A program made the position numbers and the translations under genes. 64,000 nucleotides of DNA, taken from Thalassovita gelatinovora (lineage in GTDB: Bacteria > Pseudomonadota > Alphaproteobacteria > Rhodobacterales > Rhodobacteraceae). The notes under the pieces were generated by a model that worked only from the letters and a program-made list of their open reading frames with translations, ran no database searches and was not told the DNA's origin. Shown piece by piece: positions 1,782-64,000 of this stretch (positions are counted from its first letter, which is position 1; each line of letters opens with the position of its first letter). The DNA is taken from positions 210,496 through 274,495 of the forward strand of contig NZ_CYSA01000007.1 of assembly GCF_001458355.1 (NCBI RefSeq). The letters run 5' to 3'.

Positions 1782-3307
1782 GCGACGTCCCCAACCACGC
1801 GCAGGGTTTCGGTCAGGCTGGACGTTCCCGCCGCAGCTGCCGTCAGCCCCTGCCCGAACAGGGTTTCACTGACGCCCAGCGCATGCGTCTTCATTTCGGT
1901 TTCGGTGGCGCCCCGATCAATCGCGGCGCGCAGGGTTTCGCCCACTTCGATCATTTCGAAAATCCCGATCCGACCGGAATGGCCGGAGCCACCACAGGTG
2001 TCGCAGCCGAAAGGTTCATAAAGCACATCAGGCACCGCGATGCCGTGACGGCGAAAAAGGTCGGCTTCGTCTTCGGTTGGTTGGTGCGGGCGGCGACAGT
2101 CAGGGCAAAGTTTGCGCAATAACCGCTGCGCAATAACCCCGCGCAAAGTGGCGGCGATCAGGAAATTGTCGAGGCCGAGATCGCGCAGCCGCACGATGGC
2201 CCCGATCGAGCTGTTGGCATGCAGAGACGAAAACACCAAATGCCCGGTCAGCGCGGCCTGAGTCGCGACGCTGGCGGTTTCGGGATCGCGGATTTCACCC
2301 ACCAGAATCACATCCGGGTCTTGCCGCAGCGTGGCACGCAGACCGGCAGCGAAGGTCATGCCGATATCGGCGTTGATCTGACTTTGCGATATGCCGGGCA
2401 GATCGTATTCGATCGGGTCTTCGACGGTGACGATATTGCGTTCGGCCCGGTCAGCCAGTTGCAACAGCGAATAAAGCGTCGTTGTCTTGCCCGCGCCGGT
2501 CGGGCCAGTGGCCAGAATGATCCCGTTGGGCAGCGCCGACAGCCGTTTCAACAAGGTCTGCTGCGTCCGGGTCAGGCCCAGATCGGTTAGCGGCATCAAC
2601 CCTGCCGAGCGATCAAGAATCCGCAAAACGATGCGTTCGCCGTAATGACCGGGCAGCGATGATACCCGTGTGTCGATCATCCGCCCGCCCAGCGTCAGCG
2701 GAATGCGCCCGTCCTGCGGCAGCCGGGTTTCGGCGATATCCAACCCGGCCATCACCTTGAGCCGCGACACGATCCGTTTCACCGGCACGTCGGGGCGGTC
2801 CATCACTTCTTGCAGGAAGCCATCGATCCGCATCCGCACCCGCAGCCCGTGTTCATGTGGTTCCACATGCAGGTCCGACGCCCCGTTCAGCACGGCCCGT
2901 TTCAGCAACCGATTGACCAGCTGGATCACCGGCGCGTCGCCGGGATCGTCCAGCAGATCGCGCTGCCGGGCATTGGCAGCGCTGTCTTCGAGATCGAACA
3001 GAAGTTCGGGATCGGTGCCAGTATCGGCATCGGTTTCGCCGGCGTTGTATATTCGCGCCAGCGCGGTTTCGAACCCGGCCTGATCGGTTTCCTGCACATC
3101 GACATCGGGGACCAGACCCAGCCGCCGCTGCGCTTCGCGCAGGCCAAGCTGGGTGACGGCGGGGCCGACGATCAGCCGCCCGTCCTCCAGCAAAACCTGC
3201 TGATCACGGGCAAAAGCGAAGGGCAGCTTAGTTGCCAAACTGGATTCGGCTGGGAAGCGGTGGGAAGTTTCGGCGTTGCGCGACATCATCGACGAATCCG
3301 GCATCAA
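1778..3307 (-). CDS. gspE: Type II secretion system assembly ATPase GspE
   Basis: Encodes up to 509 residues of the secretion/pilus ATPase family. Visible features are the N1E-like N-terminal domain, Walker A GPTGAGKTTT, Asp box and Walker B region (VILVGEIRDPETA), His box (TGHLVFSSLHAN), and a tetracysteine zinc module (CPDC...CDTC), typical of GspE. It powers pseudopilus growth at the cytoplasmic face. The start is uncertain: the ATGs at 3307, 3304, 3289 and 3286 lie inside gspD (57-80 bp overlap), and a TTG at 3238 overlaps only the gspD stop. No convincing ribosome binding site separates them. Confidence 0.93.
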   Translation of the reverse strand: MMPDSSMMSRNAETSHRFPAESSLATKLPFAFARDQQVLLEDGRLIVGPAVTQLGLREAQRRLGLVPDVDVQETDQAGFETALARIYNAGETDADTGTDPELLFDLEDSAANARQRDLLDDPGDAPVIQLVNRLLKRAVLNGASDLHVEPHEHGLRVRMRIDGFLQEVMDRPDVPVKRIVSRLKVMAGLDIAETRLPQDGRIPLTLGGRMIDTRVSSLPGHYGERIVLRILDRSAGLMPLTDLGLTRTQQTLLKRLSALPNGIILATGPTGAGKTTTLYSLLQLADRAERNIVTVEDPIEYDLPGISQSQINADIGMTFAAGLRATLRQDPDVILVGEIRDPETASVATQAALTGHLVFSSLHANSSIGAIVRLRDLGLDNFLIAATLRGVIAQRLLRKLCPDCRRPHQPTEDEADLFRRHGIAVPDVLYEPFGCDTCGGSGHSGRIGIFEMIEVGETLRAAIDRGATETEMKTHALGVSETLFGQGLTAAAAGTSSLTETLRVVGDVA

Positions 3308-5195
3308 ACGGTTGGTTCAGGTCAACCCCGTCAAAGGGCAGCGCCCCGGACGGTGATTTCGGGTACTTTCCGTCATCCAGGGGTTCGATGGCAAGGCTTG
3401 CTTTGCGCGCATCACGGGCGATTTTGCGGCTGAGGTCCTGCGCTTCTTGTTCGGAATTGACCACCTGTGGGCGCAACAGCACCAACAGAACCCGTTGGTT
3501 CTTGGTGGCGTTCTTGCCCCGGAACAACCCGCCGATCAGCGGCAGTTTGGAAATGCCCGGCACCCTTTGGCTGACTGACCCTGAGCCGTTTTCCAACAAT
3601 CCGCCAAGCAAGATCACGTTGCCATCACGCACCAGAACGGATGTCGACAGCGACCGTTTCGAAGTGATTTCCCCGCCCGAAGCCGCCTGCGACGAGGTCA
3701 GGTTCGACACTTCTTGCTTGATATCCATCCGCACGGTGCGGTCGGCGTTGATCTGTGGCGTGACGTTCAGGGTCAGGCCGACATCCTGCCGTTCGATGGT
3801 CTGAAACGGGTTTTCCACCGCGCTATCGCCGACGGTGGAATAGGCCCCGGTGACGAAAGGCACGTTCTGCGCCACGACGATTTCGGCTTCTTGATTGTTC
3901 AGGGTCATGATCGACGGGGTCGATAACAGTCGGGTCGAGGTGGTCGAGGCCACGGCAGACAGGAACCCGGCGACGCCGCGGTCGCCCTGTGACGGCACCC
4001 CGGCAATGATCCCGCCCGATCCGGCATCGATGGTGGTGCCGTTGAGGACCGAGGCCACCAGATTGGTCAGGCTGGGACGGCCCTCCAGCGTGAATTGCGC
4101 CCCGCCAACCACCGCATTGTTCAGAATTCCGGCCCATTGCACCGCCAGATCGGCAAAGCCGTCGACCGACATTTCAAAGATCACCGCTTCGACCAGAACC
4201 TGACGCGGGCGGCGGTCAAGATAGCGGATCATGCTGACGATATCGTCCATCCGGTCCTGCGGTGCCGTCACCAGCAATGTATTGGTCTGTGGTTCCGGCA
4301 CGATATGGATGGGGGCTTCGTTCGCGCCTTGCTGTTCGTTGGTGATGGCGCGCAACACTACATCCGCCAGCGCGGCAGCATCGGCATAGTTCAGCCCCAC
4401 CGCGTGACTGACGACGTTGTTTTGCTGGGTATCCAGCCGCGATGCCAACACCCGGATCTTTTCCCGAAAATCGGCGGAACCGGACACCACAAGGGCGTTG
4501 GACCGGCGATCCACCGACAGCGCCGCGCCGTCCGGCAAGATGCCCATCGACTGAATCACCTGAGCCACTTCGGACGCGTTGGCATTGCGCAGCCTGATCA
4601 TCTGAATCGGTTCATCGCGCGGTTGGTCCAGACGGCGGATCAGCGCTTCGATCCGGCGGAAATTCTGACCGCGGTCGGACAGGATCAGCATCTTAGAACC
4701 GGGCACCGGGGTCAGGATCGCATCGGCGGGCAACAATGGCCGCACCACTTCGACGACATCTTGCAAGGGTGCGTTTTCGACTTCGATCACCCTTGTTTCA
4801 TAGGTGCCTTTGCTGCCGGCAACATCCGGTCCCGACGCCAATCCGCGCGCATTGCGCATGGCCACGATCCGATCCGCCCCGCCGCCTTCGATCAAGGTCA
4901 GGCCATTGAGTTCCAGCACGCTGAGAAAGACTTCGTAAAGTTCATCTGCGGACATGTCGTCGGGGGCAAGAACAGTGACGTTGCCGCGCACTTCGGGGTC
5001 CAGAATGAAACGGCGGTTGGTCGCTTCGGAGACGATTTCGATAAAGCTGCGGATATCGGCATCGCGCAGATCCAAAGCCACCTGCGCCCGCGCCGGTTGG
5101 GCATCCAGAACGAGGATTGCCAAGGGGCCGATACCCGTCGCGAGCATCAGCCCGAACGCGGCCAGTGCAGGCCGGATCGACGCTAGAATTTTCAT
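3228..5195 (-). CDS. gspD: Type II secretion system secretin GspD
   Basis: Encodes 655 residues. A signal peptide (cleavage near residue 37, after ARA) is followed by an N0 domain (VALDLRDADIRSFIEIVSEATN), N1-N3 ring domains and the C-terminal secretin domain with the VPGISKLPLIGGLFRGK signature (residues 555-575). It forms the outer-membrane channel of the type II system. The short tail after the secretin domain could hold the pilotin-binding S-domain. It is first in a gspD-E-F run on the minus strand. The pseudopilin genes gspG-K and gspL/M are not in this window. Confidence 0.95.
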   Translation of the reverse strand: MKILASIRPALAAFGLMLATGIGPLAILVLDAQPARAQVALDLRDADIRSFIEIVSEATNRRFILDPEVRGNVTVLAPDDMSADELYEVFLSVLELNGLTLIEGGGADRIVAMRNARGLASGPDVAGSKGTYETRVIEVENAPLQDVVEVVRPLLPADAILTPVPGSKMLILSDRGQNFRRIEALIRRLDQPRDEPIQMIRLRNANASEVAQVIQSMGILPDGAALSVDRRSNALVVSGSADFREKIRVLASRLDTQQNNVVSHAVGLNYADAAALADVVLRAITNEQQGANEAPIHIVPEPQTNTLLVTAPQDRMDDIVSMIRYLDRRPRQVLVEAVIFEMSVDGFADLAVQWAGILNNAVVGGAQFTLEGRPSLTNLVASVLNGTTIDAGSGGIIAGVPSQGDRGVAGFLSAVASTTSTRLLSTPSIMTLNNQEAEIVVAQNVPFVTGAYSTVGDSAVENPFQTIERQDVGLTLNVTPQINADRTVRMDIKQEVSNLTSSQAASGGEITSKRSLSTSVLVRDGNVILLGGLLENGSGSVSQRVPGISKLPLIGGLFRGKNATKNQRVLLVLLRPQVVNSEQEAQDLSRKIARDARKASLAIEPLDDGKYPKSPSGALPFDGVDLNQPFDAGFVDDVAQRRNFPPLPSRIQFGN

Positions 5196-10880: not shown

Positions 10881-11562
10881 ACTGGTGCGGATCGTTCAGG
10901 ACGATTTCAGCCTAGCGGTTGATTTTACGCTCGAACAGGGTCGCATATTGGCCCTGATCGGCCCGTCGGGGGCAGGAAAATCGACCCTGCTGAACGTCAT
11001 CGCGGGATTTTTCCCACCGCAATCGGGTCGGGTGATGTGGCAGGGGCGTGATATCACCGGGCAAGTGCCCGGCCAGCGGCCAATCGCGATGCTGTTTCAG
11101 GACAACAACCTGTTCCCCCACCTGAGCGCGCTACAGAATGTCAGTCTGGGCCTGCGTCCCGATCTGAAACTGGATCAGGCCGAACGGGATCAGGTGCAAG
11201 ACGCGCTGCGCCGGGTCGGATTGGCGGGGCTGGGGGATCGCAAACCCGGCAACCTGTCGGGCGGACAACAAAGCCGGGTGGCCTTGGCACGGATTTTGGT
11301 TCAGCGCCGGCCGCTGGTGTTGCTGGACGAACCGTTTGCCGCGCTGGGTCCGGCGCTGAAACGCGATATGTTGCGGCTGGTTCGGGACGTGATGGCCGAT
11401 ATTGGCGGCACCCTGATCATGGTCAGCCATGACCCCGATGATGCGCGAATGATCGCGGATTTGACGGCAGTCGTGGCCGATGGAACGGTCAGCACGCCGC
11501 AGCCCACGAAAGACCTGTTTGAAACCCCATCCGCCGCGCTGCGGGCCTATTTGGGCGATTGA
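10867..11562 (+). CDS. thiQ: Thiamine ABC transporter, ATP-binding protein
   Basis: Encodes 231 residues with Walker A GPSGAGKST, signature LSGGQQSRVALAR, Walker B LVLLDEPFAAL and the switch His in MVSHDPDD. It drives thiamine import with ThiP. GGAGG at 10855-10859 is spaced correctly for the ATG at 10867; a GTG at 10864 is in frame but close to it. It overlaps the end of thiP, completing a thiBPQ operon. Confidence 0.95.
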   Translation: MLTLELVRIVQDDFSLAVDFTLEQGRILALIGPSGAGKSTLLNVIAGFFPPQSGRVMWQGRDITGQVPGQRPIAMLFQDNNLFPHLSALQNVSLGLRPDLKLDQAERDQVQDALRRVGLAGLGDRKPGNLSGGQQSRVALARILVQRRPLVLLDEPFAALGPALKRDMLRLVRDVMADIGGTLIMVSHDPDDARMIADLTAVVADGTVSTPQPTKDLFETPSAALRAYLGD

Positions 11563-52032: not shown

Positions 52033-52887
52033 ATGATACCAGCAGCGTTCGATTACTATCGGCCTAAGAAGATGGACGACGTGATCGCCCTTTTGGAACA
52101 GCACGGCGATGATGCACGTGTGATGGCGGGGGGGCATAGTCTGATCCCGATGATGAAGCTGCGAATGGCCGAAGTCCCGCATCTCATCGATCTGCAAGAC
52201 ATTGAAGGCCTGAGCGACATTTCTGTCGAGGGTGGGAAAATCACTTTGGGCGCGATGGTGACCCAGCATGATTTGATCAATCATGCCGGGTTGACGGCCG
52301 CTGCGCCGATTCTGCGCGAAGCGGCGCTTCAGATTGCAGATCCGCAAGTGCGCTACATGGGGACCGTCGGCGGCAACGTTGCCAATGGCGATCCGGGCAA
52401 TGATATGCCCGGATTGATGCAGTGCCTCGATGCACAGATCAATCTGGTTGGCCCGAATGGCACACGCAGCGTGGCCGCACGTGAGTATTACGAAGCGGCC
52501 TATATGACCGACCGAGAGGATGACGAAGTTCTGGTGTCGATCAGCTTTGATACGCCTTCAGGTGGGTTTGCCTATGAAAAGCAAAAACGCAAAATTGGCG
52601 ATTATGCCACCGCCGCCGCGGCCGTACAGATCGTCAAAGACGGGGGCAAAGTCGCGGCCGCATCGATCGCGATGACCAACCTGAGCGACGTACCTGTTTG
52701 GTCGGAAGGCGCCTGCGATGCCTTGGTTGGCACGAGCTGTGACGCAGCCGCGATGAAGGCAGCTGCGGCTGCGATGCTGGGCGACATTGATCCATCCGAA
52801 GACAACAGGGGCCCCGTTGCCTTCAAGCGCCATGTGGCAGGCGTCATTCTGACCCGCGCCATCACGCGCGCTTGGGATCGGGCATAA
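52033..52887 (+). CDS. coxM: CO dehydrogenase medium (FAD) subunit
   Basis: Encodes 284 residues of the molybdenum-hydroxylase FAD subunit family. FAD motifs AGGHS (32-36) and TVGG (111-114) fall at the same positions as in the Oligotropha enzyme, as I recall them. It takes electrons from CoxS and passes them towards the quinone pool. GGAGG-AAGGA precedes the ATG. Confidence 0.95.
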   Translation: MIPAAFDYYRPKKMDDVIALLEQHGDDARVMAGGHSLIPMMKLRMAEVPHLIDLQDIEGLSDISVEGGKITLGAMVTQHDLINHAGLTAAAPILREAALQIADPQVRYMGTVGGNVANGDPGNDMPGLMQCLDAQINLVGPNGTRSVAAREYYEAAYMTDREDDEVLVSISFDTPSGGFAYEKQKRKIGDYATAAAAVQIVKDGGKVAAASIAMTNLSDVPVWSEGACDALVGTSCDAAAMKAAAAAMLGDIDPSEDNRGPVAFKRHVAGVILTRAITRAWDRA

Positions 52888-52899
52888 GGGACAACAGAA

Positions 52900-53394
52900 A
52901 TGACTGAAAAAATGCACATCAAGCTGAAAGTGAACGGCGAAGACAAAGAATTTCTGGCCGAACCGCGCGAATTGCTGATTTACGCGCTGCGCGAAAAACT
53001 CAACATCACCGGCCCTCATGTAGGATGCGAGACATCCCATTGTGGTGCCTGCACCGTAACGCTGAACGGAAAATCGGTGAAATCCTGCACCATGTTTGTG
53101 GCCCAGGCCAACGGTGCCGAAATCACCACGATCGAAGGCATCGGCACCCCGGACGCGCTGCATGTATTGCAAGAAAGTTTCCGCGAACATCACGGGTTGC
53201 AATGTGGGTTCTGCACGCCGGGGATGATCATGAGGGCAACCAAGTTGCTGGAAGAAAATCCGACCCCCACCGAAGAAGAAGTTCGCTTCGGCATGGCCGG
53301 CAACATCTGCCGCTGTACGGGCTATCAGAACATCGTCAAATCCATCCTTGCCGCAGCAAGCGAGTTGAACGCCGCGAAGGAGGCCGCACAATGA
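52900..53394 (+). CDS. coxS: CO dehydrogenase small (2Fe-2S) subunit
   Basis: Encodes 164 residues. The plant-type [2Fe-2S] ligands are Cys43, 48, 51 and 63 (CETSHCGAC). The second cluster uses Cys102, 105, 137 and 139 (QCGFC and [10 protein letters not shown]). It relays electrons from the Mo-Cu site to FAD. It follows coxM by 12 bp, and its stop overlaps the coxL start. Confidence 0.96.
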
Positions 53395-55808
53395 ACGATT
53401 TGTCTCCAGAACGCCAAGAACGCTCTGCCAACCTGAAAGGCATGGGGTGTTCGCGTAAGCGCGTCGAAGATGCCCGGTTCACCCAAGGCAAGGGCAACTA
53501 TGTCGATGACATCAAGCTTGATGGCATGTTGCACGGTGATTTCGTTCGGTCCCCTTATGCGCATGCGCGGGTTGTTTCGATCAACAAAGACGCCGCACTT
53601 GCGCTGCCCGGCGTCGTTGCCGTTTTGACCGCAGAAGACCTGGCGCCTTTGAACCTGCACTGGATGCCGACTCTGGCCGGTGACAAACAAATGGTGCTGG
53701 CGGATGGCAAGGTGCTGTTTCAGGGACAGGAAGTGGCGTTTGTAGTCGCATCTGACCGGTATGTCGCCGCCGATGCGGTTGAATTGGTCGAGGTGGAATA
53801 CGAGGAACTGCCGGTTATTACCGACCCGTTTGAATCCTTGAAATCCGACGTGGTTTTGCGTGAAGACCTTGCAGGGCAAACCGAAGGCGCACATGGTCCG
53901 CGCAAGCATCACAACCATATCTTCACGTGGGAACAAGGTGAAGAAGCCGCAACCAACCAAGTGATCGACAATGCCGACATCGTTGCCGAAGAAAGCATGT
54001 ACTATCATCGCACACATCCTTGCCCGCTGGAAACCTGCGGATCGGTGGCGTCGATGGACAAGGTCAACGGCAAGCTGACGCTTTGGGGCACATTTCAGGC
54101 GCCGCATGTGGTGCGCACTGTGGCTTCGTTGTTGTCGGGGATCGAAGAACACAACATTCGCGTCATCTCTCCCGACATTGGCGGCGGGTTTGGCAACAAA
54201 GTCGGCGTCTATCCCGGCTATGTCTGTTCCATCGTGGCGTCCATCGTCACCGGCGTTCCGGTGAAATGGGTCGAAGACCGGATGGAAAACCTGATGTCGA
54301 CCGCTTTTGCGCGCGATTATCACATGACCGGCAAGATCGCTGCCACCAAAGACGGCAAGATCACCGGGTTGCATTGTCATGTGACGGCAGACCATGGCGG
54401 CTTTGACGCCTGTGCTGATCCAACCAAGTTTCCGGCAGGGTTCATGAATATCTGCACCGGGTCTTATGACATTCCGACGGCCTACCTGGCGGTGGACGGG
54501 GTCTATACCAACAAGGCGCCGGGTGGGGTATCCTATCGCTGTTCGTTCCGGGTGACGGAAGCGGTGTATTTCATCGAACGCATGATCGAGGTTTTGGCGA
54601 TCAAGCTGGACATGGACGCGGCCGAACTGCGCCGGATCAACTTCATCAAGAAAGAACAATTCCCCTATACTGCCGCCTTGGGCTGGGAATATGACAGCGG
54701 CGATTATCACACCGCGTGGGACAAGGCGCTGAAGTCCGTCGATTACGAAGGCTTGCGTAAAGAACAAGCCGAAAGGGTCGAAGCCTTCAAGCGCGGCGAA
54801 ACCCGCACGTTGATGGGGATCGGTCTGTCGTTCTTCACCGAAATCGTCGGGGCTGGTCCAGTCAAGAACTGCGACATCCTTGGGATGGGCATGTTTGACA
54901 GCTGCGAAATTCGTATCCACCCCACCGGGTCGGCAATTGCACGTCTTGGAACCATCTCTCAGGGTCAGGGCCACGCGACGACGTTCGCCCAGATCTTGGC
55001 GAGCGAAATCGGTATTTCGGCGGACAGCATCACCATCGAAGAAGGTGATACCGACACAGCCCCCTATGGGCTTGGAACCTATGGATCGCGGTCAACCCCG
55101 GTTGCGGGTGCGGCGACAGCGTTGGCGGGGCGCAAAATCCGCGCCAAGGCGCAGATGATCGCGGCTTACCTGCTTGAAGTACACGACGACGATGTTGAAT
55201 TCGACATCGACCGTTTTGTGGTCAAAGGCGCACCGGAAAAGTTCAAGACGATGAAGGAAATCGCCTATGCGGCCTATAATCAGGCCATTCCGGGAATCGA
55301 ACCGGGGCTTGAGGCGGTCAGCTACTACGATCCGCCCAACATGACCTATCCGTTCGGGGCCTATGTCTGCGTGATGGACATCGACGTCGATACTGGTGTG
55401 CCGGAAATCCGCCGTTTTTACGCGCTGGACGATTGCGGCACGCGGATCAACCCGATGATCATCGAAGGACAGGTCCATGGTGGCCTTACCGAGGCGCTCG
55501 CCGTCGCGTTGGGACAAGAAATTGCCTATGACGAACTCGGCAACGTCAAGACCGGGACGCTTATGGACTTCTTCCTGCCAACAGCCTGGGAAGTGCCCAA
55601 TTACGAAACCGACTACACCGTCACCCCCAGCCCGCACCATCCGATCGGGGCCAAGGGTGTGGGCGAAAGCCCGCATGTGGGCGGCGTGCCGTGTTTTTCG
55701 AACGCGATTCAGGATGCGTTCCGTCCGTTCGGCAATACCCATACCAACATGCCGCACGATCACTGGCGCATCTGGCAGACGGCCAATGGGCTTGGGCTGC
55801 ATGACTAA
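53391..55808 (+). CDS. coxL: CO dehydrogenase large subunit, form I type
   Basis: Encodes 805 residues of the xanthine oxidase-family molybdenum subunit. The active-site loop reads SYRCSFR with Cys384, the residue that carries copper in form I CO dehydrogenases (canonical AYxCSFR; form II has AYRGAGR). SQGQGHATT and the catalytic-base Glu759 ([11 protein letters not shown]) are intact, both about four positions earlier than in Oligotropha. It oxidises CO to CO2 at a Mo-S-Cu centre. The ATG at 53391 overlaps the coxS stop. Confidence 0.96.
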
Positions 55809-55843: not shown

Positions 55844-55854
55844 ACAGGTTGGAT

Positions 55855-56736
55855 ATGATGATGGATTGGACCACGCTGCAAACCGCCATGGCGGAACAGG
55901 GTTATATTGCCGATGATGATCTGGCCATGGCCGTGCATCTGGCGTTGGCTTTGGGTCGTCCTTTGCTGCTTGAAGGTGCCGCTGGCGTCGGCAAGACCGA
56001 AGTGGCGCGCGTCCTGTCGCAGGTCCGCGATACCCAGTTGATCCGCCTGCAATGCTATGAAGGTCTGGACGCGGCGCAGGCCATTTACGAATGGAACTAT
56101 CAGCGTCAGCTGCTTTCCATTCGGGCCGCTGCCGAAGACGGGGAAACTGGCCGCGCCGTAGAAGACCGCATCTTTTCCCAAGATTTCTTGTTGGAACGGC
56201 CCCTTCTCAAAGCCATTCGGCAAGATCAGCCGCCCGTCCTTTTAATCGACGAAATCGACCGGGCCGATGAAGAATTCGAAGCCTATCTTCTGGAAATTCT
56301 ATCCGAATTTCAGGTGACAATACCGGAACTTGGGACGATTACCGCGACTTCGCGCCCGATCGTCATATTGACGGCCAACGGCACGCGTGACCTGAGCGAT
56401 GCGCTGCGCCGTCGCTGCCTGTATGCTCATGTCGGCTATCCTGACCGCAACACCGAATTGTCAATTTTGCAAAGCCGTTGCGCGGGTATCAACGGGCAAC
56501 TTGCCGGCCAGATTGTCGGGTTCGTACAATCCCTGCGCAAAGAAGATCTGGAAAAGAAACCTGGCGTCGCCGAGATGCTGGATTTTGCTGCCGCCCTGAT
56601 GGGGCTGGGGATTGCAGACCTGACAACCGATCCGAAGGTGCTGCAAGCCACGCTTGCCACGCTTTTGAAAACCGAAAGCGACCGCTTCAACATCACGACC
56701 GAAATCGCCCAGCGTCTGGCCGGGAAAGCCGCATGA
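55855..56736 (+). CDS. coxD: MoxR-family AAA+ ATPase, CO dehydrogenase maturation
   Basis: Encodes 293 residues: P-loop GAAGVGKTEVAR (from residue 41), Walker B VLLIDEIDRADEEFEAYLL, sensor 1 VILTANGTRDLSDAL with arginine finger. In Oligotropha CoxD is needed to sulfurate the Mo site before copper insertion. Three consecutive ATGs (55855, 55858, 55861) make the exact start uncertain. The stop overlaps coxE (ATGA). Confidence 0.94.
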   Translation: MMMDWTTLQTAMAEQGYIADDDLAMAVHLALALGRPLLLEGAAGVGKTEVARVLSQVRDTQLIRLQCYEGLDAAQAIYEWNYQRQLLSIRAAAEDGETGRAVEDRIFSQDFLLERPLLKAIRQDQPPVLLIDEIDRADEEFEAYLLEILSEFQVTIPELGTITATSRPIVILTANGTRDLSDALRRRCLYAHVGYPDRNTELSILQSRCAGINGQLAGQIVGFVQSLRKEDLEKKPGVAEMLDFAAALMGLGIADLTTDPKVLQATLATLLKTESDRFNITTEIAQRLAGKAA

Positions 56737-57914
56737 GCAGGGTCACGAAATTCGCAGCCCGTGATCCCGGCCCGGCGGCACGCATGTCGGGGTTCATGGC
56801 ACATTTGCGCGACAATGGGTTACGTCTTGGCGTTGGTGAGGCAGAACTGTCCCTGACAGCATTGACCCATGTGCAAGCCAGCGATCCCAACGAAGTCCGC
56901 CACGCATTGCGTGCGGTGTGCAGCGGCTGTGCCGAAGATGCCGCGCGGTTTGACGATTTGTTTGATGCTTTTTGGCTCAACGGTGGGCGGGTGGCGGAAA
57001 AGACGATGCCGGCGCAATCGCCCACCGCTGACAACGTCCATAGTTCGCGTAATGCCAAAGGGCTGGATGCGGCAAGTGGAGCCGGTTCCGCCACGTCGCC
57101 CGATGGCGATGACGGTGGCGCCGCTGAGGACGGCGAGGGAAAACTGGTGGCCAGCGTGGTGCAGGCCACGATGAAGAAAGATCTGCGAGATCTGGTTCAG
57201 CCCGAAGATATTGCCGAAGCGCAAGTGATCGCTCGGAAGCTCGGTGCGGCGCTGCACGACCGCCGCTCGCGCCGTCGCAAACAGGCCCGCAAAGGCGATA
57301 AAATCCATTTTCGCAAACTGATCCGCCAAAGCCTGTCGACCGGCGGGGAACCGTTACAATTGCCCAAGAAACAGCGCCCGGATCGACCTTTGAAAATCGT
57401 GACGCTGTGCGACGTTTCCGGGTCGATGACTGTCTATGCTCAAGTTTTTCTGGCGTTCATCGCGGGGCTGATGCGCGAAGACGAGACGACCGACGCCTAT
57501 TTGTTTCACACCCGGCTTGTCCGCATCGCCGAAGCCCTGCGCGACAAAGATGCGCTGCGCGCGTTGGGGCGATTGTCGGTGCTGGCCGACGGGTTTGGCG
57601 GTGGATCAAAGATCGGGGTGTCCTTGATGCAGTTTTCGCGGACCTATGCGCGCCGGTTCGTCGATGGGCGCACCGTCGTGTTGATCCTGTCAGACGGGTA
57701 TGACACCGACAGGCCCGAATTGATCGCCGATGCCCTTGCCGCGTTGCGCAAGCGTGGCTGCAAAATCATCTGGCTCAACCCGCTGAAAGGCTGGGACGGC
57801 TATGAACCCGTGGCCCGAGGCATGGCAGCGGCCTTGCCCCACCTTGATCTGTTCCATCCTGCAAACCGATTGGCCGATCTGGAAGCACTTGAACCGGAGC
57901 TTAGACGCCTATGA
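56733..57914 (+). CDS. coxE: VWA-domain CO dehydrogenase maturation protein
   Basis: Encodes 393 residues. The N-terminal helical part precedes a Ser/Gly/Asp-rich low-complexity linker (about residues 95-145), and the C-terminal VWA domain has the MIDAS motif DVSGSM at Asp227. CoxE works with CoxD and CoxF in maturing the Mo-Cu cluster. It is coupled by ATGA to both neighbours. Confidence 0.93.
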   Translation: MSRVTKFAARDPGPAARMSGFMAHLRDNGLRLGVGEAELSLTALTHVQASDPNEVRHALRAVCSGCAEDAARFDDLFDAFWLNGGRVAEKTMPAQSPTADNVHSSRNAKGLDAASGAGSATSPDGDDGGAAEDGEGKLVASVVQATMKKDLRDLVQPEDIAEAQVIARKLGAALHDRRSRRRKQARKGDKIHFRKLIRQSLSTGGEPLQLPKKQRPDRPLKIVTLCDVSGSMTVYAQVFLAFIAGLMREDETTDAYLFHTRLVRIAEALRDKDALRALGRLSVLADGFGGGSKIGVSLMQFSRTYARRFVDGRTVVLILSDGYDTDRPELIADALAALRKRGCKIIWLNPLKGWDGYEPVARGMAAALPHLDLFHPANRLADLEALEPELRRL

Positions 57915-58714
57915 TGCCTGTTGATTTCACCGACAAAGACATTTCGAAACTGGCAAAGGACATGCGCGCGCGCGGTGAACCCTTTGCAATTGCCACGGTT
58001 GTACGCACTTTGGGGGCCACTGCGGCCAAACCGGGCGCGAAGGCGCTTCTCAATGCGCAGGGCGTGATCTTGCAGGGCTGGATTGGCGGCGGTTGCGTCC
58101 GCAACGCATTGGCAAAAGCAACACAGCGCGCGATGGCCGACGGCGCCCCCCAACTGGTGTCGTTACATCCGCAAGATCTGTTGGACGAAAAGGGGATCAC
58201 AGCAGGCGAAGACATCGAAGGTGTGCGATTTGCCCGCAATGGCTGCCCGTCAAAAGGATCGATGGATATCTTCGTCGAACTTGTCCTGCCGTTGCCCGAA
58301 TTGCGGATTTATGGCGATTCACTCGTTGCGCAATCTCTCGCCCATTTGGCAGCGCAGTTTCAATGGGCAGTCAGCCACGGAACAGCAGACACGACGGCAC
58401 CGGCGTTGGGCGAAGGCGATATGCGGATGATCGTTGTGGCCACACAGGGTAAAAGCGATCTGGATTGCCTGAAGGCCGCTTTGAACAGCGATTCCTCCTT
58501 CATTGCCTTTGTCGGAAGTCGGAAAAAGTTTGCCGTGCTGTCAGAACGTCTTGTTGCTGACGGCCTGCCCCAGGAAACCGTTGCGCAGATCCAAGCCCCC
58601 GCAGGGTTGGCGATCGGAGCCGTGACACCCGACGAAATTGCCCTGTCGATCCTTGCGCAATTAACCAGCATTCGGCGGCACGATCAGCGGCATCAAGGGG
58701 GCGACAATGAATAA
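57911..58714 (+). CDS. coxF: XdhC-family maturation factor (CoxF)
   Basis: Encodes 267 residues. The XdhC N-terminal motif (LGATAAKPGAKALL, then GWIGGGCVRNALAKA) and C-terminal Rossmann domain (residues 120-255) are present. XdhC-type proteins bind and sulfurate the molybdenum cofactor; CoxF is needed for copper/sulfur assembly in CO dehydrogenase. The end overlaps a micro-ORF by eight bases. CoxI is a paralogue and cannot be wholly excluded, but the position after coxE favours CoxF. Confidence 0.9.
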   Translation: MMPVDFTDKDISKLAKDMRARGEPFAIATVVRTLGATAAKPGAKALLNAQGVILQGWIGGGCVRNALAKATQRAMADGAPQLVSLHPQDLLDEKGITAGEDIEGVRFARNGCPSKGSMDIFVELVLPLPELRIYGDSLVAQSLAHLAAQFQWAVSHGTADTTAPALGEGDMRMIVVATQGKSDLDCLKAALNSDSSFIAFVGSRKKFAVLSERLVADGLPQETVAQIQAPAGLAIGAVTPDEIALSILAQLTSIRRHDQRHQGGDNE

Positions 58715-58856
58715 TTGCACCGCAATTACAAAACCCCTGACCGCCATCCCGGTAAATGTCGGTGCTTGTGCGGCTTCGGCCCCGGTTGTTTTGCACATCG
58801 ACAAGACGTCCATGGATTTCAAAAATTTACCAGCAACCAGCGAGATGAAAATATGA
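58707..58856 (+). CDS. Micro-ORF 1 in the cox cluster (49 aa, unknown)
   Basis: The ATG at 58707 overlaps the coxF stop (ATGAATAA) and is preceded six bases upstream by GGGGG in AAGGGGG, a strong ribosome binding site. The 49-residue product begins MNNCTAITKPLTAIPVNVG, has two Cys (4 and 21) and ends SEMKI. Codon choice looks native (CTG, ACC, GCC, ATC and GCG are common). There is no signal peptide or recognised domain. Its stop overlaps the next micro-ORF's ATG. I know no family for it. Confidence 0.55.
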   Translation: MNNCTAITKPLTAIPVNVGACAASAPVVLHIDKTSMDFKNLPATSEMKI

Positions 58857-58954
58857 AGAAACTGAAGTGTCTTATTCGCCGCTGGGTGACGCCCGCAAAA
58901 CTGAACGAAGAGCAGGCCGAGATTCTTGCTTCGATAAAATTCCCATGCTGTTAA
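58853..58954 (+). CDS. Micro-ORF 2 in the cox cluster (33 aa, C-terminal Cys-Cys)
   Basis: The ATG at 58853 overlaps the stop of micro-ORF 1 (ATGA). The 33-residue product is basic at the start (MKKLKCLIRRW), has a helical middle (PAKLNEEQAEILASIKF) and ends in Pro-Cys-Cys. A third Cys is at residue 6. It lies directly before coxG. The terminal CC pair could bind a metal such as copper or carry a thiol; this is speculation. A longer TTG-initiated reading in this frame (58715) has atypical codons. Confidence 0.55.
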   Translation: MKKLKCLIRRWVTPAKLNEEQAEILASIKFPCC

Positions 58955-58967: not shown

Positions 58968-59417
58968 ATGGAACTGAACGACGAAATCACCATCAATGCT
59001 TCCAAGGCACGCGTCTACGAAGCGTTGAACGATCCTGAAATTTTGAAACAGTGCATTCCGGGTTGTGAGGAACTGATCAAGCATTCCGACACCGAACTTG
59101 AAGCGAAAGTCGTGTTGAAAGTCGGGCCGGTCAAAGCGCGGTTCAGCGGCAATGTTCAACTTGATACATCCGGCGCGCCGGATGCGTTTTCATTGACCGG
59201 TCAGGGCAATGGCGGTGCAGCAGGCCATGCCAAGGGTGGCGCTGACGTCACTTTGAAAGAAGTCGATGGCGCGACGGTTTTGACATATGCTGCCAAGGCG
59301 GAAATCGGTGGCAAGCTTGCGCAACTGGGATCACGTTTGATCCAAAGTACCGCGAAAAAACTTGCGGCGAAGTTCTTCAAGCAATTCGCGGAAGTCGTCG
59401 ACGAGGTAACAGCTTGA
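58968..59417 (+). CDS. coxG: CoxG-family SRPBCC protein
   Basis: Encodes 149 residues with the SRPBCC/START-like fold. The opening MELNDEITINASKARVYEALNDPEIL, central CIPGCEELIKHSD and the C-terminal helix LGSRLIQSTAKKLAAKFFKQF match CoxG. CoxG has been linked to membrane/quinone coupling of CO dehydrogenase. It stops right after the core domain, without the extra C-terminal tail of longer CoxG proteins, so membrane attachment may differ. It is the last gene of the cluster. Confidence 0.93.
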   Translation: MELNDEITINASKARVYEALNDPEILKQCIPGCEELIKHSDTELEAKVVLKVGPVKARFSGNVQLDTSGAPDAFSLTGQGNGGAAGHAKGGADVTLKEVDGATVLTYAAKAEIGGKLAQLGSRLIQSTAKKLAAKFFKQFAEVVDEVTA

Positions 59418-61111: not shown

Positions 61112-64000
61112 CTATTGCAGCGGGACAATCAATTTGAAGCTGACCCCGTAGCTTTCGAAGTCGTCCTGACCGATACCATCGTAATTCGCGGTCATGCTGA
61201 ATTGCAGACCTTCGCGGTTGGTATAGTTGAATCCGCCTTCAAGACGCGCCCGCAGGCCTTCGCTTTCGGTGGTCGCATTGGCAGACAAGGTCGCCCCCGA
61301 CGCATCGCTAAAGTTATAGATTGCATCAAGTGTGAAGAACGGTTCCCACACATCGCCGCCCAGCATGTCGAACCGGCGGGAGAAGTTGGGACCAAACCGA
61401 AGCTGACCCAGCGAAACCTTCTGGCCCGGAATTGGAACGCCAAGCGAATCCACATAGGCCTGCTGATTTTCCCGGATATAGGAAAGGCTGATATTAGGTG
61501 ACATCATCCAGTTGTTTTTCAGCTCATATTGTCCGGTCAGGCTGGCATTGGCCAGGAACCGTTCGGTTTCGAACGTATCCGTATAGGTGTTGAATGGGCT
61601 GATGTCGTTGGTCGACCGGCCCATGGCGAACCGACCGTCAAAGATCAGGTTCGGCGCCAGCCGTGCGGTGACATACGGCCCTGCCATCCAACCTTGCCCT
61701 TCAACGGTGCTGCTGGTGACGGTGGATGCGTCGCGCATCGAATCGAACTGGATCAACGCGCCGATCAGCAGGTCTTTGGACACGACGTAATCAGCCCCGA
61801 AATACCCCAGCGCGAAATGCCCGCCTGCCCCTTGGGTGCCCGAGAATTCATTGTAGAACCCTTCGAACCAGACATCCCAACGGGTATTTTGCACATACAT
61901 GCTTTCCAGATCGGGATTATGCGCCAACAACGCCATCGCCTGTGCCGACCGCAGCCGTTGGGTCGATGTGGCTATATGGTAGTTGCCCGATCCAATTGAC
62001 ATCAGATCGAATTCCAGCGGCGACATCGCCATGATATCACCGCTGGCGAAACGCAGCTGTTGACCGCCGGTGCCACCTGAATTCAATCGCTGCAACCGGC
62101 GCGACAGGCTGGGCTGGTTTGACAGCAGCAGGTTATTGCGCCGCTGCAGGAAGTTGTGGATGGTATCCACCGTCTTCTGCAACGTTGCCACACTGCTGAT
62201 TGTGCAGGTGACGGATTCGAAATCGCCCAGTACCAGATTGATTTCGCCGCCGGTGGCATTGACGGTGCTGTCGTCATCGCTGCAACGGATCGTTTCGTTG
62301 CCCACGCCGGTCGGACGGCTTTGTTTCACGGCGTAATCACCCGACGGAATTTCGATCGGGCCGAAACTTCCGGTTCCGCTTGCCGTCGCAATGGTAAAAT
62401 TCAACAAAGATTCGGTCGAGGTGAAACCGAAGTTGCCATCTTCCGTCGTTTCCTGAATGAAAGTGACATAGGCGTTGGGATTCACCACCACGGTGACTTC
62501 GATATCCGCAGGTGCCGCACCGACCCCGACACTAGAAGATAGCGGGCTCAGTACGCTGGCCAATGCCCCGACCGTGACCGAGGTCACGTTCAGACGGATT
62601 TCACAGCTGCTTTGTATACCAACGGTGCCAGCGCTGAAGCTGAAACCAGACTCCCCAGAAGTCGCGCTCAACGTCCCGCCACAGGTCGAACTTGCCCCGG
62701 TCGGATCGGCAATCCTCAGATTGCTCGGGAAAGTTCCATTGAAGGCAAGCCCGCCAACTTCGATAAAGTTCGCGCTGTTGTCGATGGTAACGATCAAGGT
62801 CGATGTGCCACCCTGAGCAATCGTTTCCGGATTGAACCGCTGCGACATGATCGGTGCATTCGCTGCCGTTACGCTGAGCGACGCGGTCGCGGTGCCGCTA
62901 TTGCCCAAGCTGGACGTTAGCTCACCGCTTTCATTGTTGTAATCGTCTACAACGGACGCGGTGACATCCACGCTGATTTCGCAAGTCGTTCCAGCATCGA
63001 CCGATCCACCAGCATATCCGAACGAAGACGTTTCAGCGACGGCCGTCATTGTCCCGCCGGTGCAGGTGCTGGTCGCGTTCGGCGTGGCCGCCACGGTCAT
63101 ACCCGCCGGGAAGCTGTCGCTGAACTCGAGCGCCGTGGCCGAAACCAACGCCGCGCTGTTGTCGATGGTGAAGGTCAGTGTTGTAACGTTGCCCTGAACG
63201 ATGCTGTCGGGTGCAAACGCCTTGGCAAAGCCGGGCGCACCCGCTGCTGTCACGCTCAGCGTCGCGGCGGCGGTGCCGCTGTTGCCCAAAGACGACGTCA
63301 GGTCGTCCGACACGTTATCGGCATCCCCCACGGTGGCCGAAGTCACATCGACGCTCACATCGCAGCTCGATCCCGCGGCAACGGTTCCACCGGTGAAGCT
63401 GACGCTATCCGTGCTGGCTGTTGCCGTCAGCGTGCCACCCGAACAGGTGCTGGTCGCGTTCGGCGTGGACGCCACGGTCATACCCGCCGGGAAGCTGTCG
63501 CTGAACTCGAGCGCCGTGGCCGAAACCAAAGCACTGCTGTTGTCGATGGTGAAGGTCAGCGTTGTAACGTTGCCCTGCACGATGCTGTCGGGCGCAAACG
63601 CCTTGGCAAAGCCGGGCGCACCCGCTGCTGTCACGCTCAGCGTCGCGGCGGCGGTGCCGCTGTTGCCCAAAGACGACGTCAGGTCGTCCGACACGTTATC
63701 GGCATCCCCCACGGTGGCCGAAGTCACATCGACGCTCACATCGCAACTCGATCCCGCGGCAACGGTTCCACCGGTGAAGCTGACGCTATCCGTGCTGGCT
63801 GTTGCCGTCAGCGTGCCACCCGAACAGGTGCTGGTCGCGTTCGGCGTGGACGCCACGGTCATACCCGCCGGGAAGCTGTCGCTGAACTCGAGCGCCGTGG
63901 CCGAAACCAACGCCGCGCTGTTGTCGATGGTGAAGGTCAGCGTTGTAACGTTGCCCTGCACGATGCTGTCGGGTGCAAACGCCTTGGCAAAGCCGGGCGC
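61112..64000 (-). CDS. Large autotransporter, C-terminal part (5' end beyond window)
   Basis: About 960 residues are visible, and the frame stays open to the window edge. The passenger is a run of 127-residue beta-sandwich repeats resembling DUF11-type modules (each with SxTCSGG and SSCDVSVDV, i.e. two Cys). The first visible repeats are near-identical; later ones diverge. A linker with a predicted coiled segment (TVDTIHNFLQRRNNLLLSNQ) leads to a 12-strand-type autotransporter barrel ending in FKLIVPLQ. It is probably a surface adhesin or stalk. The N-terminus and signal peptide are not seen. Confidence 0.9.
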   Translation of the reverse strand, partial: APGFAKAFAPDSIVQGNVTTLTFTIDNSAALVSATALEFSDSFPAGMTVASTPNATSTCSGGTLTATASTDSVSFTGGTVAAGSSCDVSVDVTSATVGDADNVSDDLTSSLGNSGTAAATLSVTAAGAPGFAKAFAPDSIVQGNVTTLTFTIDNSSALVSATALEFSDSFPAGMTVASTPNATSTCSGGTLTATASTDSVSFTGGTVAAGSSCDVSVDVTSATVGDADNVSDDLTSSLGNSGTAAATLSVTAAGAPGFAKAFAPDSIVQGNVTTLTFTIDNSAALVSATALEFSDSFPAGMTVAATPNATSTCTGGTMTAVAETSSFGYAGGSVDAGTTCEISVDVTASVVDDYNNESGELTSSLGNSGTATASLSVTAANAPIMSQRFNPETIAQGGTSTLIVTIDNSANFIEVGGLAFNGTFPSNLRIADPTGASSTCGGTLSATSGESGFSFSAGTVGIQSSCEIRLNVTSVTVGALASVLSPLSSSVGVGAAPADIEVTVVVNPNAYVTFIQETTEDGNFGFTSTESLLNFTIATASGTGSFGPIEIPSGDYAVKQSRPTGVGNETIRCSDDDSTVNATGGEINLVLGDFESVTCTISSVATLQKTVDTIHNFLQRRNNLLLSNQPSLSRRLQRLNSGGTGGQQLRFASGDIMAMSPLEFDLMSIGSGNYHIATSTQRLRSAQAMALLAHNPDLESMYVQNTRWDVWFEGFYNEFSGTQGAGGHFALGYFGADYVVSKDLLIGALIQFDSMRDASTVTSSTVEGQGWMAGPYVTARLAPNLIFDGRFAMGRSTNDISPFNTYTDTFETERFLANASLTGQYELKNNWMMSPNISLSYIRENQQAYVDSLGVPIPGQKVSLGQLRFGPNFSRRFDMLGGDVWEPFFTLDAIYNFSDASGATLSANATTESEGLRARLEGGFNYTNREGLQFSMTANYDGIGQDDFESYGVSFKLIVPLQ
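63201..64000 (-). repeat. 381-bp tandem repeats in the autotransporter passenger
   Basis: The marker ATGCTGTCGG occurs at 63201, 63582 and 63963, a constant 381-bp (127-codon) period. The two complete units (63201-63581, 63582-63962) differ at only a handful of positions, and a third begins at 63963. Diverged units continue to lower coordinates to about 62460. Near-identity in DNA points to recent unit duplication. Confidence 0.92.

Follow-up and report, generated by a model that had tools for sequence, protein, structure and literature searches.

We report that the gap between coxF and coxG in a form I CO dehydrogenase cluster of Thalassovita gelatinovora holds a gene for a 33-residue microprotein ending in Cys-Cys (ORF2). 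That ORF2 is a real conserved gene is virtually certain. The 49-codon ORF1 in front of it is a different thing, and the two are no conserved pair; ORF1 is most likely a scar, what is left after a mocA-like nucleotidyltransferase gene shrank. The microprotein gene is mostly unannotated and easily missed.

The analysed stretch of 64,000 nucleotides (hereafter the window) carries the gene order M-S-L-D-E-F-G, which matches annotated form I records (Table 1). Its CoxL has the active-site loop SYRCSFR and thus belongs to form I as defined by (A/S)YRCSFR; the best 80 form I loci from named-species genomes all read AYRCSFR (80/80). A sequence-only reading had described two overlapping ORFs of 49 and 33 codons that fill the coxF–coxG gap with no spare bases. 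Both ORFs are present, and their junctions are seen in the sequence as described: ORF1 starts with ATG, overlaps the coxF stop (58712–58714) and has AAGGGGG upstream of its ATG, and ORF2 starts with an ATG that overlaps the ORF1 stop as ATGA, its own ribosome-binding site being weak. The Pro-Cys-Cys ending noted for the 33-mer is Phe-Pro-Cys-Cys in full (...IKFPCC). The gap is not completely filled, however: after the ORF2 stop come 13 bases before coxG begins with its ATG at 58968.

Table 1. Features of the form I CO dehydrogenase cluster in the window
Feature	Position	Strand	Basis
coxM	52033..52887	+	Pfam PF00941, PF03450
coxS	52900..53394	+	Pfam PF01799, PF00111
coxL, form I large subunit, active-site motif SYRCSFR	53391..55808	+	
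coxD (MoxR-type AAA ATPase)	55849..56736	+	Pfam AAA_5
coxE (VWA protein; start inferred)	56733..57914	+	Query against annotated VWA genes
coxF (XdhC/CoxI family)	57911..58714	+	Pfam PF13478, PF02625
ORF1, 49 aa, probable mocA-like scar still open as a spacer	58707..58856	+	Junctions; frame also open in 11% of base-shuffled gaps
ORF2, Cys-Cys microprotein, 33 aa, MKKLKCLIRRWVTPAKLNEEQAEILASIKFPCC	58853..58954	+	Homologues, selection, predicted helices 2–11 and 19–27
coxG, 149 aa, without C-terminal hydrophobic tail	58968..59417	+	Pfam PF06240; CoxG length comparison

The ORF2 peptide was searched against 394 genomes of the family and matched at E <= 10 in 109 of them, many by chance. The best 30 loci (its own included) all belong to genomes among the 103 with form I CoxL; coxF lies upstream in 30/30, coxG is next in 29/30, and the ending is KFPCC-stop in 29 and RFPCC in the remaining one. 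ORF2 is under purifying selection (pN/pS = 0.24 across the last 16 codons of 33 sequences; codon bootstrap 0.11–0.44), the other two frames giving pN/pS of 1.28 and 1.54 in the 33 sequences. Codon positions 1, 2, and 3 differed 1917, 1289, and 4648 times, respectively, and the KFPCC codons themselves show synonymous change. Two checks that the sequence-only reading had proposed, a search of the coxF–coxG gaps of relatives and a selection test on aligned copies, came out in favor of ORF2. For ORF1 the gap search found no sequence relative in the homologous gaps of 32 other loci, and we dropped the idea of a second conserved microprotein. The suggested role as CO dehydrogenase accessory holds up well for ORF2, given its conservation, selection, and form I context, and the copper or thiol handling proposed with it would fit the fixed Cys-Cys.

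An alignment search of the protein database returned 205 proteins at E <= 0.1. Among the 120 listed, 119 end in KFPCC and one in KFPSC, and the names among the matches listed are “hypothetical” or “uncharacterized” with one exception (P0048, RatA according to its source). Neither ORF1 nor ORF2 matched any Pfam or NCBIfam family at E <= 1. Four plasmid records match ORF2; one annotates a hypothetical protein and three no feature, their gene tables being incomplete. In a class search (385 genomes, up to 20 candidates scored in each), the listed matches outside the family that reach the last profile position scored at most 15.5 bits. A phylum search (398 genomes) gave four matches outside the family, none ending in Cys-Cys, with a sensitivity limited in that it missed G076 and G249, both of which have the gene. 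No such protein was described in the literature titles and abstract openings covered, a scope outside which most subscription papers lie. Two other identities for ORF2 were rejected. It is not a piece of the 79-residue TTG frame at 58715–58954, since the ATG at 58853 is where alignment with full-length homologues begins. A PDB profile search pointed to TAL-effector repeats with E down to 1e-14; the match covers profile positions 4–27 without the Cys-Cys end, and we read it as summed short matches because no single stretch passed alone.

ORF1 and ORF2 are no conserved pair because the one other species of the genus examined (G076) leaves no room for ORF1, its ORF2 starting inside the coxF stop. 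As a coding sequence ORF1 is not above chance (Table 1), but where it lies and how it overlaps its neighbors is not random. In relatives the coxF–coxG gap is often occupied by a mocA-like gene, a name inferred from the annotation “nucleotidyltransferase family protein”; it is the upstream neighbor of the microprotein in 21 of 64 loci. In 18/23 cases these genes begin 7 bases short of the coxF end, and in 17/23 their stop overlaps the following ATG as ATGA. ORF1 has both features, and it is read as a mocA scar because both of its junctions copy those of the mocA-like gene. DNA comparison found no relative of ORF1, a tblastn search for a mocA remnant gave nothing convincing, and the match to the mocA-like profile is weak (15 of 2000 shuffles did as well at the C-terminus and 79 of 2000 at the N-terminus). 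The gap ORFs of Roseivivax (L091) and G086 (L028 and L210), 49 and 61 residues long, clearly match the mocA-like profile at their N-termini (0 of 1000 shuffles each) and weakly or not at their C-termini (36 and 678 of 1000).

Of the 13 loci that lack a mocA-like gene and have a gap of at least 12 bases, 9 keep a gap-spanning ORF, in some cases a very short one (7–61 residues), as would be expected if it served coupling. The best reading of ORF1 is a coupling spacer left by an eroded mocA-like gene, whose overlaps would carry ribosomes from coxF to the weakly initiated ORF2. To that extent the earlier suggestion of a leader system coupling coxG translation may still hold for ORF1. That ORF2 too is nothing but a translation-coupling element with an irrelevant peptide is very improbable and was rejected: the ATGA overlaps and the frequent gap-spanning ORFs would fit, but in ORF2 it is the amino acids and not the bases that are conserved, and ORF2 is kept where coxG is missing, namely in three clusters without an adjacent coxG.

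Form I CoxL was found in 103 of the 394 Rhodobacteraceae genomes; the DNA downstream of it was examined in 99, and coxF with sequence beyond was available in 96. Among these 96 readable clusters the microprotein is present in 67, and coxG is next in 64 of the 67 (both: 64; microprotein only: 3; coxG only: 12; neither: 17; Fisher's exact test uncorrected for kinship, P = 1.2e-8). With a quick tree of CoxD-E-F, the microprotein went along with coxG in 7.5 and opposite to it in 0.3 (means) of 12 independent pairs differing in coxG, the sign test giving a median P of 0.016 (range 0.002–0.22). A single deletion taking both neighbors could in part explain their shared loss. One of the three clusters with the microprotein and no adjacent coxG (G246) has a CoxG paralogue elsewhere. 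CoxG in Rhodobacteraceae clusters is tail-less, its length being 147–161 aa across the 76 loci with coxG. Roseivivax THAF197b (L091) and THAF40 (L105) retain coxG as a degraded remnant; the microprotein preceding it is intact in the former and matched in the latter.

Cys-Cys-stop ends 66 of the 67 microproteins, the exception being L235 (type B, ending PRSC); of the 67, 60 were found by a profile itself built from KFPCC sequences, and seven by the Cys-Cys ending or by eye, these seven being circular as Cys-Cys evidence. Conserved vicinal cysteines, the mark sought for a dithiol copper carrier, are accordingly present in 66/67. Type A members end in (K/R)FPCC or a near variant and mostly share a conserved second helix (TPEQAExLA). 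Type B members have a very different sequence, end in (F/Y/H)P(K/R)CC, and lie 15–28 bases before coxG. Marivivens sp. JLT3646 carries the gene, and the copy in Pseudosulfitobacter pseudonitzschiae SMR1 is a variant ending in ..KSPCC. The basic N-terminus noted in the 33-mer is shared by most members, the N-terminal part having a net charge of +3 or more in 54/64 (lowest 0), and by helical moment it is more amphipathic than shuffles. The predicted ORF2 model has two helices (residues 2–11 and 19–27) at modest confidence (mean pLDDT 75, pTM 0.29).

We compared Cys-Cys occurrence in the best 80 form I loci from named-species genomes, a comparison chosen after the microprotein had been seen. An ORF2-type microprotein occurs in one of these loci, the Rhodobacteraceae MAG L179, and ends in KLPCC. 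CoxG was found in 52 of the 80 (one cut by a contig end); 21 of the 52 are 147–156 aa long, and 20 of these are without the microprotein, as are the short CoxG of Shinella HZN7 and R. jaguaris. In two of the 20 loci (L169 and L184) the upstream gene has Cys-Cys at its end. A hydrophobic tail with Cys-Cys is present in 12/52 CoxG, and Cys-Cys in 15/56 complete CoxG when five plasmid loci are included. Within the last six residues Cys-Cys was found in MocA-like proteins (2/6) and CoxF (1/75), and in none of CoxM (0/82), CoxS (0/85), CoxL (0/85), CoxD (0/80), and CoxE (0/77), or 0/409 together; inside the chain it occurs in three CoxE and two CoxF proteins. The MocA-like proteins of the Rhodospirillales-type loci L169 and L175 end in ..GAPCCM and ..VLPACC, respectively, with no microprotein present, and the predicted CoxF of L184 (Rhizobium subbaraonis) ends in ..QRRFCCM. 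None of 23 Rhodobacteraceae MocA-like proteins ends in Cys-Cys by itself; that of L223 (G056) does so through the microprotein, a single 232-codon open frame at about 3090–3787 of that locus joining the two genes (..SEQAEHIRFPCC), possibly as a natural fusion. Elsewhere the microprotein is a separate ORF. MocA-like nucleotidyltransferases are enzymes of about 200 aa.

The tail of CoxG in Afipia (Oligotropha) carboxidovorans OM5 reads HWCCIGGHAHAQ. It resembles the microprotein in its form I cluster, its Cys-Cys with basic residues before it, and its coxF–coxG neighborhood; it differs in being part of CoxG, in the hydrophobic stretch before the Cys-Cys, and in the histidines after it, and the two have no sequence similarity. 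In Oligotropha-type tails (L092, L096, L098, and others) a hydrophobic stretch is combined with CC(I/L), with histidines, and with a late Cys-Ser/Thr motif, and no mention of this combination was found in the accessible parts of the cited CoxG literature. Against both microprotein profiles, 12 of 13 Cys-Cys-bearing tails (13 of the 15 were tested) scored like shuffles; the tail of L160 exceeded them with one of the two. The microproteins are without the hydrophobic stretch of the tails. The likeness therefore lies in Cys-Cys alone and is analogy, not homology. We rejected the microprotein as a detached CoxG tail, given the missing similarity (12/13) and the short CoxG without it (20/52), and a strict rule that the microprotein replaces the tail failed in the named form I loci. 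CoxG itself, a 149-aa PF06240 protein in the window, is linked to the microprotein as neighbor gene and by joint occurrence, and differs from it in that the microprotein matches no Pfam model.

Because vicinal thiols at the C-terminus, a helix that is both basic and amphipathic, and the coxG link come together, we tentatively favor a reading, drawn from sequence, in which the microprotein is an inner-membrane-surface partner of the tail-less CoxG whose Cys-Cys presents Cu(I) for the Cu-S-Mo centre. It would lie on the membrane surface beside CoxG, and its C-terminal cysteines would bind Cu(I) and offer it to the centre. Cox17-type copper chaperones have vicinal cysteines, and the microprotein is likened to them by that feature alone, as a possible Cu(I) site. 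Support for copper comes from the accessible part of PMC4240915: the enzyme of an O. carboxidovorans coxG mutant has full cyanolysable sulfur, is short of Cu with fairly high Zn, and is 51% active with no particulate enzyme. Several points argue against the Cu(I) reading: the authors of PMC4240915 conclude that CoxG takes no part in building the Cu-S-Mo centre; none of the 23 Rhodobacteraceae MocA-like proteins has a Cys-Cys end of its own; short tail-less CoxG occur without the microprotein in the named loci, and 12 Rhodobacteraceae clusters have coxG only; Cys-Cys is also found inside CoxE and CoxF chains; the CoxG-tail likeness is confined to Cys-Cys; and co-deletion is possible.

The main rival, which we consider rather unlikely, is a membrane tether with no metal role: the basic helix would sit on the membrane and the C-terminus grip CoxG or CO dehydrogenase, replacing the CoxG tail in trans, with Cys-Cys as a contact or disulfide. 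The tail-less CoxG of these clusters, the joint occurrence with coxG, and the basic, amphipathic N-terminus suit a tether, as do the proposal of CoxG as membrane recruiter in O. carboxidovorans (PMC4240915) and the recruitment of Sulfolobus G3P dehydrogenase to the membrane by CoxG-like proteins (PMC11962113), both from the accessible parts of these papers. However, the microprotein is intact in the three clusters without adjacent coxG (allowing for the G246 paralogue), precedes degraded coxG in both Roseivivax strains, and is missing beside many tail-less CoxG. A tether also leaves unexplained why no residues are more fixed than the two cysteines.

DsrC and TusE carry persulfide on C-terminal cysteines, and the C-terminal thiols of the microprotein might in the same way hand on persulfide sulfur that becomes the sulfido bridge in the Cu-S-Mo centre. 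We regard such a sulfur relay as distinctly improbable; the Cys-Cys end, the place of the gene beside coxD, coxE, and coxF, and the Cys-Cys endings or fusion on MocA-like and CoxF proteins agree with it, but the sulfuration step is assigned to CoxD in the accessible part of PMC4240915. A small structural or stabilising subunit, whether it belongs to CO dehydrogenase or to the CoxD-CoxE-CoxF machinery, seems improbable as well: it would account for the conserved second helix and for the location in the maturation block, but the microprotein is missing from 29/96 clusters.

The Cu(I) reading can be extended by analogy, in a form we think unlikely, to all form I CO dehydrogenases: a mobile Cys-Cys module would be the final carrier that hands Cu(I) to the Cu-S-Mo centre, present as a free microprotein in Rhodobacteraceae, as the CoxG tail in Oligotropha-type clusters, and as the C-terminus of MocA-like or CoxF proteins in a few others. 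Through aerobic CO oxidation, Rhodobacteraceae are regarded as an important biological sink of CO. CoxG has reportedly been described as a quinone carrier (Kropp 2025). ORF2 offers a small knockout target for both Cu(I) delivery to the Cu-S-Mo site and the electron route to quinone.

Three minor observations remain. In L176 (Nisaea denitrificans), with coxG not found within the locus, a basic 31-residue ORF ending in VPVCC lies just after coxF (about 11400–11490). The coxF–coxG gap of L268 (G321) encodes NPFPCCEEGTH in frame with the coxG ATG and with no stop between, which is either a microprotein in decay or an extension fused to the N-terminus of CoxG. In the window, the minus strand at 61112–63961 holds a very large ORF with 127-residue repeats, its frame open to the window end.
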